Below, piece by piece: positions 1,916-5,800 of a stretch of DNA of 12,507 nt (position 1 is its first letter; every line of letters begins with the position of its first letter). Position numbers and translations under genes: made by a program. Origin of the DNA: Bacillota bacterium. GTDB lineage: Bacteria > Bacillota_A > Clostridia > Lachnospirales > Lachnospiraceae. The DNA is taken from assembly GCA_023443925.1 (NCBI GenBank), contig JAEZSL010000352.1:1-12507 (forward strand), written 5' to 3'. Under the pieces are notes generated by a model that saw only the letters and a program-made list of their open reading frames with translations, was not told the origin of the DNA and did no database searches.

Positions 1916-2029
1916 ATGGGTCCTCCTGATACAATTTTTTATTTTTCTATATTTGTAATCGCAGAATCCGTTCCAGCATAATCTGTATGCTGCATATTAT
2001 CACGTCCCTTCAAGTAAAAAAATATATAA

Positions 2030-2077
2030 AAAACCGCATGGATATAATAAAATTGTTTATTATACCAATGCGGTTTT
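2030..2077 (-). terminator. Strong terminator-like hairpin in the aspS leader (candidate attenuator)
   Basis: Two 22-nt arms (2077-2056 and 2051-2030 in minus orientation) pair at 20 of 22 positions around the 4-nt loop CAAT; the outer part is AAAACCGCAT/ATGCGGTTTT. The minus transcript continues with T6, TATATA and T7 (down to 2016). No plus-strand gene lies upstream for it to terminate, so it most plausibly acts on transcripts arriving from the promoter at 2349-2377 towards aspS, 115 nt downstream. That position fits a regulated terminator. Confidence 0.75.
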
Positions 2078-2135
2078 ATTCGTATTATTCATTAAAAAAT
2101 CGAATATTTAACCCTGCACAGGTACAAGCCTTAAA

Positions 2136-2176
2136 GCGCTTATACCTATGGCAGAATCCTCCACAGCTATAAGCGC
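2136..2176 (-). promoter_or_regulatory. Leader hairpin overlapping the end of the leader ORF
   Basis: GCGCTTATA (2176-2168) pairs with TATAAGCGC (2144-2136), and inside it CTGTGG (2166-2161) pairs with CCATAG (2151-2146); one G/G mismatch separates them and the loop is 9 nt. The 5' arm contains the last codons and stop of the upstream 18-codon ORF, so a translating ribosome must open it. Its 3' arm contains GGTATAA, which is repeated in the 5' arm of the terminator hairpin (2066-2060). The 5' arm could therefore also pair there (TTATA with TATAA, TGTGG with CCGCA). This is the kind of mutually exclusive pairing an attenuator needs; I have not computed energies. Confidence 0.6.
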
Positions 2177-2223
2177 CGAATATCGTCGTCCCTGTTAAGT
2201 TGGCAGTTAAATAATCGATTCAT
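2167..2223 (-). CDS. Leader peptide ORF upstream of aspS, rich in Asn and Asp codons
   Basis: ATG at 2221-2223 follows AGGAG with 5-nt spacing and reads MNRLFNCQLNRDDDIRRL, then TAG. Six of 18 residues are Asn (2, 6, 10) or Asp (12-14, three consecutive GAC GAC GAT codons). These are exactly the codons read by the two tRNAs that a relaxed-specificity AspRS aminoacylates, and the next gene is such an enzyme. The Asp run ends 5 nt before the 5' arm of the 2136-2176 hairpin. The peptide itself resembles no family I know and need not have a function; its translation could be the signal, as in classical amino-acid operon attenuation. It might be a chance ORF; the ribosome binding site, codon content and surrounding hairpins argue against that. 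Confidence 0.55.
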   Translation of the reverse strand: MNRLFNCQLNRDDDIRRL

Positions 2224-2313
2224 ATTTACTCCTGTTTTCAAATTGATGGTTGTTTGCTTCTTAGTGGATTGATGATTAATACCATGAATTAATATTATCG
2301 GTTCTTATCGAAT

Positions 2314-2342
2314 AATTATTTAATCCTAACGATTTAATAATT
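2314..2342 (-). promoter_or_regulatory. Hairpin at the predicted 5' end of the aspS transcript
   Basis: AATTATTAAATC (2342-2331) pairs with GATTAAATAATT (2325-2314), one mismatch, 5-nt loop. It would form at the very start of the RNA from the 2349-2377 promoter, where it may stabilise the 5' end or be part of the leader's regulatory fold. AT-rich, so modest stability. Confidence 0.4.
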
Positions 2343-2348
2343 TTTCCT

Positions 2349-2377
2349 ATCTTAGCATGATAAATAAAAACTGTCAA
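2349..2377 (-). promoter_or_regulatory. Sigma-A-type promoter for the aspS leader
   Basis: On the minus strand TTGACA (2377-2372), a perfect -35, is followed after exactly 17 nt by TAAGAT (2354-2349), 4 of 6 matches to the -10 box. TGC directly in front makes an extended -10 (TGn). The start site would be near 2342, giving a leader of roughly 430 nt before the aspS ATG and 119 nt before the leader ORF. Confidence 0.7.
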
Positions 2378-2855: not shown

Positions 2856-3713
2856 ATGTGTACAAGTTTTGCAACTTATTTTGGTAATCCAATATATGCT
2901 ATGAATATTGACCACCCAGACCGAGAAAGGAAATTTAAAATTACTTTACTAAAGCGTAAGTGGAAAAATGATAGTATTATAAGGTTTCATTGCCAGAACA
3001 GGGAAAATGATAAGTTTTTGGATTCGGTCTGTTTAAATAGTTTGGGTATGTTCTCAAACTATCAATACTTAGTTCCAAATAAAGAAGACATACAGACATC
3101 AAAACTAAAATCAAACAAAATCTCTGATGGTAATCTGTTTTCCCAATCGCAAATGTATGTGGATACTGTAGAGGAATTACTAGAGAGAATGGATAACAGG
3201 GCTATTTATTACAGTAATTCGTTTGGCTCCTTTAAATTGCATAATATGTATGCTGACAAAGAAGGTAATGCCATTGTTCTTGAAGCATGCGAAACTGGCA
3301 ATGCAATTCATTATTTGCAGGATAAATGCATTGTAATGACTAATTTCCCTATTTATGAGTTCGAAGGGAAACATTATACTGAAGTATATGGGGATGGAAG
3401 TGATCGATATAAAACTGCATATGATGAAATTAATAAAAATAAAAGTAATTTTAATGTAGAACGGGCATTTGATGTATTAAGAAAAGCCCGTCATGCATCT
3501 GAATACTATCCCACTGTTTGTTCAATGGTTTTTGACCCTGTCGGCTTATATGTATACTTAGTTCTTTTTGGAGAATTTGAAAAGATATGGAGAATTTCAA
3601 TCAAAGAAAATATAATAGAAACCTATACTGGTTTTAAAGAGACCCGTATATTTAAAATTGGAACTAAAGGCATTCTTGCTTCAGAATTAGAAAAATACAT
3701 GCAGCAGGATTGA
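2856..3713 (+). CDS. N-terminal-nucleophile amide hydrolase (choloylglycine hydrolase / acyl-CoA:6-APA acyltransferase-like)
   Basis: 285 residues beginning MCTSF. I chose the ATG at 2856 because AAGGGGG lies 5 nt upstream and because it puts Cys at position 2, where removal of Met exposes the catalytic N-terminal nucleophile of this fold; an in-frame TTG 12 codons earlier would bury it. Other family marks are Asp19 in MNID, VLEA at 141-144, MTNFP at 161-165 with the conserved Asn163, DGSDRY at 180-185, and the late strand TVCSMVFDP (220-228). The Arg that normally stands three residues before the Asp in bile-salt hydrolases is Met16, so bile-salt specificity is unlikely. No signal peptide is present, so it is cytoplasmic. 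Substrate is unknown: linear C-N amides such as acylated amino acids or peptides are possible. It is the only plus-strand gene, with its own terminator. Confidence 0.75.
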   Translation: MCTSFATYFGNPIYAMNIDHPDRERKFKITLLKRKWKNDSIIRFHCQNRENDKFLDSVCLNSLGMFSNYQYLVPNKEDIQTSKLKSNKISDGNLFSQSQMYVDTVEELLERMDNRAIYYSNSFGSFKLHNMYADKEGNAIVLEACETGNAIHYLQDKCIVMTNFPIYEFEGKHYTEVYGDGSDRYKTAYDEINKNKSNFNVERAFDVLRKARHASEYYPTVCSMVFDPVGLYVYLVLFGEFEKIWRISIKENIIETYTGFKETRIFKIGTKGILASELEKYMQQD

Positions 3714-3978: not shown

Positions 3979-4013
3979 CTTATATTCTGGATTGAATATA
4001 ATCCAGATATAAG
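3979..4013 (-). terminator. Hairpin across the stop codon of the downstream ATP-grasp gene
   Basis: In minus orientation CTTATAT-CTGGATT (4013-4000) pairs with AATCCAG-A-ATATAAG (3993-3979), 14 bp with one bulged A and a 6-nt loop. It contains the final codons and TAA of the gene. Only GTTTTG follows, so termination is uncertain; it may instead protect the mRNA 3' end. Confidence 0.4.
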
Positions 4014-4849
4014 CCTACCAGATTTATATCCGTACACTGATATAGCATTCTGGCTCCAACTACATCTTCAATCTCATTAAAAATTAGTTCTCCCTTGTCG
4101 CCTATTATGAAATCAATCCCCACCAATCCAAAATCAAAGAGATTTATGATTTGACTCACCAGATGGGTTTCTTCCGGTGATAAAATATAGTTTTTGACTT
4201 CACCGCCCAATGAGAAATTGGATTTAAATCCTTCTTTTGCTGTTCGCAGTACACCGCCTATAATTTCCTTCCCTATTACATAAACTCTCAGATCCTGATG
4301 TTTGTGACCGATTAAGGGCTGTATTATGGCATCTGCACCGTTCAGACCTCGAAGAATACCTTTCTTATTCAATTCTACTTCTGTAGAATCGCCTTGTTCC
4401 AGCAAATAAACCTGATTGCCTCCATGCCCTGCTACTGCTTTGACAATAGTAGGTTCGGATATTACAGAAAGCCTGTCTTCTAAGAGGGAATATCTGCAAA
4501 ATTCGGTATCAGGCATTGTAATTCCAAGTCTGGCTACATACTGATGCGTTCTTGCTTTGTCATTACAGATTTCTGCTACCGTGGAATTATTAAAGACCGG
4601 AATCCCCAAGACCTCCAACTGTTTACTCAACAGGGGATATATCGTTCTACATACGGCAAATTCCGGACAGGTGATATCATCGTATCTGCCGGAAATAAAC
4701 CATTTACCCTTTTTTACACCAAAATTCAGTTCCTCCAACACCACTAAACGGATGTCTATATTCCGTTTTAGCCCTTCTTCCATATAAAACTGAATATAGC
4801 GCTTATTCTTTTCTATGTCGGCCTGACTGTATATCAACCATCCAATCAT
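3980..4849 (-). CDS. RimK-like ATP-grasp ligase, second of a tandem pair, with altered metal-site motif
   Basis: 289 residues; start ATG behind AAGGAG. The fold is RimK/LysX-like. The N-terminal domain (1-95) includes the linker GIPVFNNSTVAEICNDKART seen in RimK relatives. The ATP-grasp domain has Lys137 in IVKAVAGHGG, DLRVYV at 186-191, R202, the NFSLGG loop (211-216), D246 in GIDF, and NEIED at 258-262. Such enzymes activate a carboxylate as acyl phosphate and join it to an amine, often adding amino acids to peptide or protein ends. Here the usual E-x-N magnesium motif is E259-x-E261, so metal binding may differ. It is clearly a paralogue of the upstream gene (YQCTDIN versus YDCTGVN near the C-terminus), 48 bp away, probably cotranscribed. 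Substrate unknown; they may act as a pair. Confidence 0.8.
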   Translation of the reverse strand: MIGWLIYSQADIEKNKRYIQFYMEEGLKRNIDIRLVVLEELNFGVKKGKWFISGRYDDITCPEFAVCRTIYPLLSKQLEVLGIPVFNNSTVAEICNDKARTHQYVARLGITMPDTEFCRYSLLEDRLSVISEPTIVKAVAGHGGNQVYLLEQGDSTEVELNKKGILRGLNGADAIIQPLIGHKHQDLRVYVIGKEIIGGVLRTAKEGFKSNFSLGGEVKNYILSPEETHLVSQIINLFDFGLVGIDFIIGDKGELIFNEIEDVVGARMLYQCTDINLVGLYLDYIQSRI

Positions 4850-4897
4850 AAATGCTCCTTAAAACAGTATAAATAAGCCAATTGCTTCCCTATTATC

Positions 4898-5800
4898 TTA
4901 TTTTACACCGATACATATTCTTTTAATAATATAAGCCAGGATGGTATCCGCCACATTAACTCCGGTACAATCGTATATATTTTTAAAATGGGCATTGGAA
5001 TTAACCTCACAGACTACCGGCTCCTTGTCTTTTCCAAATAAGATATCCACTCCTGCAAAGTCAAGCCCTAATATCTTACAGCTCTCCACGGCTAGATCAA
5101 TCTGCTTCTGGGTAGGCTCATAAGGTTTCATCTTGCCGCCGCCTGTTATATTAGCACGGAAATCCCCGTTGTCCGAATAGCGGTACATGGCAGCAACTAC
5201 CTGGCTGCCCACAACCTGAAGTCTTAAATCCTTCCCCTTGCTGGAATGAATAAACTCCTGGAACAGCATTGGCTTAGCGCCAATATTCATTACGGTCTCC
5301 TTTAGTTCCTGCCTGTTATAAGCCAGATATACCTGTTGTCCGAAAGAGCCGAAACACTCCTTGATAACAATTGGCCAGCTTATTTCCTTCTCTACCTGAT
5401 CTAAAAAATCCAGATTATTATACCCTATATTGGAAAAGGTCATAGGGGCTATCATTGTTTTCGGCATAAGAATACCTGCACCCTGTAAATATAAATGGGT
5501 CTGGGATTTATCATCGCATAACGCGATTCCCTTTGAGGAATTAAAAACTGGTAATCCTTTCATTTCAAGATATTGTGCCAGTCTTGTGTCTTTATCCCAA
5601 AACAAAATAAAGTCAGGTTTTTCAGCTGATTTCTTAGACTTCATACCGGCAAAATCCTGATCCAGTTGTATCAGGATTTCCGCATTGGTTTTAACGATTA
5701 AATCAACACCCAATTTTTTTGCTGCTTCTGTTAACCAAAGATGAATTTCTGTAAATTTATGGGTATGTAAAAAAGCATTGGTTACTAACCAGCCCTTCAT
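4898..5800 (-). CDS. RimK-like ATP-grasp ligase, first of a tandem pair
   Basis: 300 residues with an excellent GGGAGGAG ribosome binding site. The pre-ATP-grasp domain (1-100) contains GLPVFNSSKGIALCDDKSQT, the RimK-type linker. The ATP-grasp domain shows Lys147 in IVIKECFGSFGQQVYL, the hinge QEF at 181-183, KGKDLRLQVVG (188-198), R215 with ANITGGG (216-222), D252, and the canonical metal motif E265-V-N267 in CEVNSNAHF. It should therefore be a catalytically intact carboxylate-amine ligase, related to RimK, LysX and the coenzyme F420/tetrahydromethanopterin glutamate ligases. The natural substrate cannot be told from sequence. It lies 44 bp after ftsK and 48 bp before its paralogue, so the pair is probably transcribed with ftsK. 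Confidence 0.82.
   Translation of the reverse strand: MKGWLVTNAFLHTHKFTEIHLWLTEAAKKLGVDLIVKTNAEILIQLDQDFAGMKSKKSAEKPDFILFWDKDTRLAQYLEMKGLPVFNSSKGIALCDDKSQTHLYLQGAGILMPKTMIAPMTFSNIGYNNLDFLDQVEKEISWPIVIKECFGSFGQQVYLAYNRQELKETVMNIGAKPMLFQEFIHSSKGKDLRLQVVGSQVVAAMYRYSDNGDFRANITGGGKMKPYEPTQKQIDLAVESCKILGLDFAGVDILFGKDKEPVVCEVNSNAHFKNIYDCTGVNVADTILAYIIKRICIGVK

Follow-up and report, generated by a model that had tools for sequence, protein, structure and literature searches.

A candidate aspartate-codon attenuator in front of spare archaeal-type aspS genes, mostly in Lachnospiraceae

Upstream of aspS, a leader open reading frame (ORF1) ending in a run of Asp codons, an RNA switch and an intrinsic terminator occurred together in 65 of 81 loci among the matches listed, a recurrence that argues against a chance arrangement. 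The 81 loci consisted of the aspS locus in a 12,507-nt stretch of Lachnospiraceae DNA (assembly GCA_023443925.1, contig JAEZSL010000352.1; hereafter, the window) and at least 80 relatives, obtained by scanning one genome per species and belonging mostly to Lachnospiraceae according to their titles. On the basis of conservation, codon identity, fixed spacing, covariation and folding models of these leaders, the element is probably a ribosome-mediated transcription attenuator that would switch on a spare aspartyl-tRNA synthetase (AspRS) when charged tRNA(Asp) is short.

The leader in the window and among relatives

An earlier note, made from the letters of the window alone, had proposed a ribosome-mediated attenuator with an Asp-codon ORF, and the elements that it listed (promoter, 18-codon ORF with a ribosome binding site, Asn codons, the GAC GAC GAT run and two hairpins) were all located on the minus strand (Table 1). 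The folding z-score of the leader was -5.97 relative to dinucleotide shuffles, and none of 100 shuffles folded equally well. The statement that the leader is not a T-box was borne out, as no Rfam family matched it at E values up to 1 and the AGGGTGGnACCGCG core was absent; the Rfam search also ruled out a known riboswitch.

Table 1. Coordinates of the leader features and of aspS in the window
Feature	Position	Strand	Basis or remark
Promoter-like site, TTGACA-17-TAAGAT, TG before the second hexamer (extended -10)	2377-2349	-	Consensus match only
Leader ORF1, 18 codons, MNRLFNCQLNRDDDIRRL, AGGAG in front	2223-2167	-	Counterpart ORF in 65/81 loci among the matches listed
Regulatory codon run GAC GAC GAT (Asp-Asp-Asp)	2190-2182	-	Codons 12-14 of ORF1
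Segment 1, partner of segment 2	2177-2161	-	5' arm of the first hairpin, starting at the ORF1 end
Segment 2, pairs with 1 or 3	2151-2135	-	Permutation and covariation tests
Segment 3 (CTTGTACCTGTGCAGGGT), pairs with 2 or 4	2128-2111	-	Covariation and permutation tests
Segment 4, terminator 5' arm, also complementary to segment 3	2077-2056	-	Permutation tests
Segment 5, terminator 3' arm and U-rich tail	2051-2014	-	Terminator hairpin as a whole, 2077-2030
Long Shine-Dalgarno-like stretch of ORF2	2011-1996	-	Compared with the 16S 3'-end complement
ORF2, the downstream short ORF of the leader, MQHTDYAGTDSAITNIEK; codons 5 and 10 encode Asp	1995-1939	-	Model R2
Hairpin over ORF2 codons 2-8	1992-1974	-	Covariation; 94.7% of cells paired, in rows picked for at least 5/6 pairs
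aspS, archaeal-type AspRS, extra copy	1915-593	-	NCBIfam PRK05159 and TIGR00458 above cut-off

Regarding the surroundings, a 22-bp A+T-rich tandem repeat in three copies (2382-2449) lies immediately upstream of the promoter. Between aspS and the next gene there is a G+C-richer stretch (2630-2830), which is perhaps a dispersed repeat; partial copies of it (87 and 91%) were present at two places in one of the five genomes searched. For an ORF at 2856-3713 on the plus strand, similarity to the choloylglycine hydrolase family was weak and partial, and two adjoining RimK-like ATP-grasp ligase genes, one of them slightly below the family cut-off, occupy 3980-5800 on the minus strand.

The Asp-Asp-Asp pattern retrieved 64 of the 81 leaders, including that of the window, and one more (L067), which reads Asp-Asn-Asp, was added by eye. 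The covariance model R1, built on 44 of the 65 leaders (short and non-redundant ones), found the element in 67 of 81 loci among the matches listed; the extra two, L018 and L063, are cut by contig ends. The attenuator was absent from 14 of 81 loci among the matches listed. Two of these (L059 and L073) end too early, and eight carry a T-box in its place (L057, L068, L069, L071, L076, L077, L078 and L080), five of them scoring under the gathering threshold and that of L077 being of uncertain assignment because it lies more than 300 nt from the gene. Reading by eye gave AAC as the T-box specifier of seven of the eight loci and GAC as that of L057. Neither an attenuator nor a T-box was seen in L072, L074, L075 and L079. 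Because the T-box is another sensor of tRNA charging, its occurrence in 8 of the 14 leaderless relatives was counted in favour of the attenuator.

In 200 genomes of the family, R1 at an E value of 1e-4 marked 13 genomes with one sense-strand match each, 12 of which precede aspS. A home-made scan for further members, which ranked known cases 2nd to 4th, took in approximately 1.95 Mb of one 5.5-Mb genome (G001); it recovered an argS leader only at rank 6 and yielded nothing new, since the five higher-ranked candidates resembled pieces of coding genes by eye. Plasmids and phages held relatives of less than 60% identity only (17 and 7 records, respectively), and ten neighbouring ORFs from seven loci had no family in common. 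Two further loci were noted in passing: in G168, the attenuator-linked aspS copy is split into two adjoining frames (L151 and L153), and a plasmid-borne aspS of Paraclostridium bifermentans has a T-box match with a second T-box core behind it (L302:6621-6960).

By sequence, the closest solved chain to the AspRS of the window is 1n9w, named AspRS 2, a non-discriminating archaeal-type enzyme. In all eight genomes tested, a single AspRS of bacterial type and a single AsnRS scored above the cut-offs, which makes the leader-linked AspRS (copy A) a spare. A second archaeal-type AspRS (copy B) was present in seven of the eight; a T-box core lay upstream of all seven, with a specifier region GAAC in six of them (by eye). 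In a midpoint-rooted tree, copy B grouped with the genes with T-boxes and four others in a clade of 19 (support 0.994) that contained no attenuator copy. In a single strain, L. phytofermentans KNHs2131, one paralogue has the attenuator (L005) and the other a T-box (L078). At the W26/H28 site, whose residue we take to separate discriminating from non-discriminating archaeal-type AspRSs, attenuator copies carried Tyr (57), His (5), Thr (1) or Ser (1) (n=64), and copy B carried His in 7 of 7 cases; a second discrimination residue was dropped for want of a confident alignment. Copy A may act as an inducible back-up. Extra AspRSs in bacteria are called rare in one report (PMC4206432).

Codon run, alternative helices and the predicted switch

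Asp occupies the three codons of the run in 65, 64 and 65 of the 65 leaders, respectively, with Asn once at the second codon, a conservation that is partly due to selection because the first ORF1 search imposed GAY GAY GAY (L067 excepted). The codons used were GAC (64) at the first position, GAC (59), GAT (5) and AAT (1) at the second, and GAT (65) at the third; the nearly fixed third bases imply that the RNA letters are constrained too. Relatives keep the ORF and its Asp codons, as the attenuator proposal had anticipated, and the N-terminal half of the peptide varies. The additional suggestion of Asn sensing was not supported for the window. The Asn codons of the window (2, 6 and 10) are not conserved as a set: codons 2 and 6 fall in the variable part, the position just before the run (codon 10 of the window) is occupied by Asn in 50 of the 65 leaders and by His in 11, and L067 has an Asn codon inside the run, between two Asp codons. 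Ahead of the run there is also an Arg in 61 of 65 leaders, and Leu, spelled with different codons, stands three codons ahead of it in 49 of 65. The stop codon follows directly behind the run in 8 of 65 leaders and later in the others. As sequence features, ORF1 starts have a Shine-Dalgarno-like sequence in 63 of 65 cases and use ATG (63) or TTG (2). The distance from the first Asp codon to segment 1 is constant, at 13 nt in 65 of 65 leaders.

Behind the run, segments 1 to 5 can pair in alternative ways. Helix 1:2 was paired in 94.2% of cells, and 8 of its 15 pairs were changed on both sides, a value reached by none of 500 shuffles. For helix 2:3, 93.1% of cells were paired and 6 of 11 pairs were changed on both sides, which 24 of 500 shuffles also reached; its covariation score was reached by none of 500. 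The two helices share segment 2 and are mutually exclusive, and both covary, in line with the covariance check proposed in the earlier note. A third helix, 3:4, missed in that note, competes with the terminator 4:5. Of its nine core positions, 7 to 9 are paired in 64 of 65 loci, many of which share a conserved T-T mismatch, and the helix shows exchanges at column 3 (A-U/G-C/U-A), column 4 (U-A to G-C) and column 6 (U-A to C-G); within-locus pairing was 7.92 against a permuted maximum of 7.62 (500 permutations). When segments were permuted across loci 300 times, the within-locus scores of 1:2, 2:3 and 3:4 (32.4, 25.0 and 20.5) exceeded the highest permuted values (29.3, 22.3 and 18.5, respectively), although the test of 1:2 is partly circular because segment 2 had been sought as the complement of segment 1. 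The excess also held in 29 dereplicated loci. The terminator was located by script in most loci and entered by eye for 9 of 65. The GGTATAA echo to which the exchange of partners had been ascribed does exist, but the swapping segment is segment 3, which is complementary to both of its neighbours.

In the ribosome-mask model, the RNA was folded as far as segment 4 and the first ribosome-free base was counted from the first Asp codon. Helix 3:4 was favoured over 2:3 in 63 of 65 leaders at +13, in 50 at +16, 32 at +19, 10 at +22 and 2 at +25, and the predicted flip was not clean in L002, L056 and L064. The prediction is therefore an antiterminator when the ribosome waits at the first Asp codon and a terminator when it runs on. 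The 13-nt distance fits the leading edge of a ribosome as given by its footprint. At 8 nt before the T-run, 3:4 outweighed 4:5 in 52 of 65 leaders under the stall, and 4:5 outweighed 3:4 in 43 of 65 once the codons had been passed. With the whole 3' arm exposed, at the start of the T-run, the terminator won in 65 of 65 leaders past the codons and also in 62 of 65 stalled ones, so that antitermination would have to be kinetic; equilibrium folding by itself was set aside as proof of antitermination, which it cannot show. Under the stall, the terminator took over later in 34 of 64 leaders (6 nt later in the window), at an equal point in 30 and earlier in none.

The direction of the switch and the signal sensed, as we infer them from these models, would be as follows. 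A ribosome translating ORF1 would meet three Asp codons. If it waited at the first, its leading edge would stop just before segment 1, allowing 1:2 to form; segment 3 would then be free for segment 4, the terminator 4:5 would be delayed and transcription would read through. With Asp-tRNA plentiful, the ribosome would enter segment 1, 2:3 and then 4:5 would form, and transcription would stop. Helices 1:2 and 3:4 would also form without translation, and the predicted default is therefore ON, opposite to that of the trp attenuator.

The second leader ORF and versions for other amino acids

ORF2, a conserved short ORF absent from the earlier note, lies between the terminator and aspS. A first search imposed GAY at codon 5 and at least 5 of 6 hairpin pairs, and the conservation of both is accordingly partly a matter of selection. 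The 44 aligned ORFs follow the pattern M-x-x-x-D-[D/Y]-x-x-x-D. Codon 5 is Asp in 44 of 44 (GAC 23, GAT 21), as the search pattern imposed, and codon 10, on which nothing was imposed, is likewise Asp in 44 of 44 (GAT 40, GAC 4). The model R2, built on 44 of 50 examples, found the element in 52 of 81 sources among the matches listed, at E values of 5e-12 or better, the match in L066 being weak; the model alone picked up L015 and L018, in which both Asp codons are also kept. The hairpin over codons 2-8 has a 7-nt loop, and its covariation was reached by none of 500 shuffles. Of the 15 letters of the full anti-Shine-Dalgarno complement, the Shine-Dalgarno stretch matched 11.4 for ORF2 and 7.4 for ORF1, the stretch scored being slightly longer for ORF2.

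Among the 200 family genomes, R2 gave nine strong matches, of which eight lie at aspS leaders and one at a decayed locus that lacks aspS; at E values up to 0.01, some match appeared in 101 of 200 genomes, nearly all of it weak background. At the decayed locus L162, the terminator and ORF2 remain and aspS is gone. Inspection of a few leaders by eye revealed no general pairing of the ORF2 module that would hide the aspS start. Our guess is that a ribosome waiting on the Asp codons of ORF2 might protect or stabilise the mRNA.

The architecture also recurs with other codons. In A. aminovalerica, R1 weakly matched what turned out to be an argS leader, MTSLVLSNLRRRDRRKLL, and within this accessory argS subfamily, a set of 16 genes (14 plus two further ones), an L-R-R-R leader of the same architecture precedes seven (L203-L208 and L221); neither an attenuator nor a T-box was seen before the other nine. 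The Arg run lies 13 nt from segment 1 in five of the seven and 16 nt in two. In the mask model, all seven flip in the same sense by +34, and in six the open state lasts to +22. All seven genomes contain another argS above the cut-off. In addition, the one R1 match among the 13 marked family genomes that does not precede aspS is an Asn-Asn-Asn leader, MYYSVKCFHLNGNNN, with 13-nt spacing, before a phosphorylase-superfamily (nucleosidase-like) gene (L182:12679-12569, minus strand), a case that does not fit a rule restricted to synthetases.

These versions bear on three other readings of the Asp leader. The same attenuator might work with the opposite sign, a stalled ribosome covering part of segment 1 and promoting 2:3, so that Asp shortage would increase termination. 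With a footprint 6-9 nt longer, a ribosome stalled on the second or third codon of the run would favour 2:3 (3:4 is kept in 50, 32 and 10 of 65 leaders at +16, +19 and +22). We regard such repression as improbable, because the synthetase would be shut off just when its product is short, the first codon of all 65 leaders is spaced precisely so as to hold the switch open, and six of seven Arg leaders stay open to +22.

Binding of the RNA by AspRS itself or by another trans-acting factor, with the ORFs being incidental, would account for nucleotides of the Asp run and segment 1 that are conserved beyond coding need, and for the 7-nt-loop hairpin of ORF2; it is very improbable given that the codon run becomes Arg before argS with the architecture unchanged and that SD-like sequences mark 63 of 65 ORF starts. 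The same change of the run with the gene, from Asp to Arg, and the retention of a triple cognate run make a leader that senses general slowing of translation (for example, by ribosome-targeting antibiotics) rather than charged tRNA(Asp) the least probable of the three, even though the mask model needs only a ribosome held near codons 12-14 and such leader ORFs are known (PMC12121999). Extending the preferred reading, activation of a spare synthetase on shortage of its charged tRNA, we offer as a speculation, and a rather unlikely one in its entirety, that Lachnospiraceae may use a portable, codon-programmable, inverted five-segment attenuator for spare synthetases, retargeted by swapping the run (Asp, Arg, Asn). 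In the Asp version, ORF2 would add a further stage by initiating strongly and holding an mRNA-protecting ribosome at its Asp codons, and the whole might serve as an alarm that replaces a blocked housekeeping synthetase, for example one blocked by a natural synthetase inhibitor.

Comparison with known systems

T-boxes are the rule for synthetase genes of Firmicutes. The T-box (RF00230) regulates the gene family that the Asp leader precedes, at the eight attenuator-less loci and copy B described above, but it binds tRNA directly. In the trp, his and pheST attenuators of E. coli, segment 1 is covered by the stalled ribosome, helix 2:3 acts as antiterminator, and the operon is OFF without translation. 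The Asp leader resembles them in coupling leader translation to mutually exclusive hairpins and an intrinsic terminator, whereas its 2:3 helix is predicted to favour the terminator and 1:2 together with 3:4 to favour read-through. The trp/pheST geometry supposed in the earlier note would therefore be inverted: a ribosome stalled ahead of segment 1 should not disturb 1:2. Helices 2:3 and 3:4 cannot coexist, and segment 1 begins 13 nt beyond the predicted stall codon, which departs from the four-segment scheme.

Among described synthetase leaders, the closest in setting are the leader peptides predicted before duplicated hisS-family genes (hisS*, hisZ) in bacilli (Naville and Gautheret 2010, PMC2965389). 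They share a cognate codon run before duplicated Firmicutes synthetase-family genes whose paralogues use T-boxes, but the run is His, not Asp, Arg or Asn, and the accessible text of that paper describes no inverted five-segment geometry, fixed spacing or second ORF. The uORFC-8-2 motif, a Cys uORF before cysS in Rhodobacterales reported in 2021 (PMC8632094), likewise combines tandem cognate codons, a structured RNA and a terminator before a synthetase gene; it differs in belonging to alphaproteobacteria and in having two Cys codons inside the first stem, and no covarying, exclusive 1:2/2:3/3:4 set is described in the available excerpt. A terminator-containing 5' UTR of Shewanella aspS appears among the synthetase leaders in PMC2659441. 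The transamidation operon of C. acetobutylicum has a two-codon T-box (Saad et al. 2013, cited from the review PMC4052509), which resembles the GAAC specifier region of copy B (6/7) and so concerns copy B, not copy A.

Overall, the kind of regulation is already known, and no description of the Asp or Arg leader, the inverted five-segment geometry, the exact spacing or the tandem ORF2 was found in the open-licence PMC literature searched, as far as its accessible text goes. The present leaders would add Asp and Arg, with one Asn case, to leader-peptide attenuation of Firmicutes synthetase genes, and both kinds of tRNA-charging sensor occur on members of one gene family. The default-ON geometry and the exact codon-to-hairpin distance lead to sharp predictions on ribosome position, and the association with additional synthetase genes suggests an inducible back-up, a point relevant to the question of why duplicates persist in bacteria.
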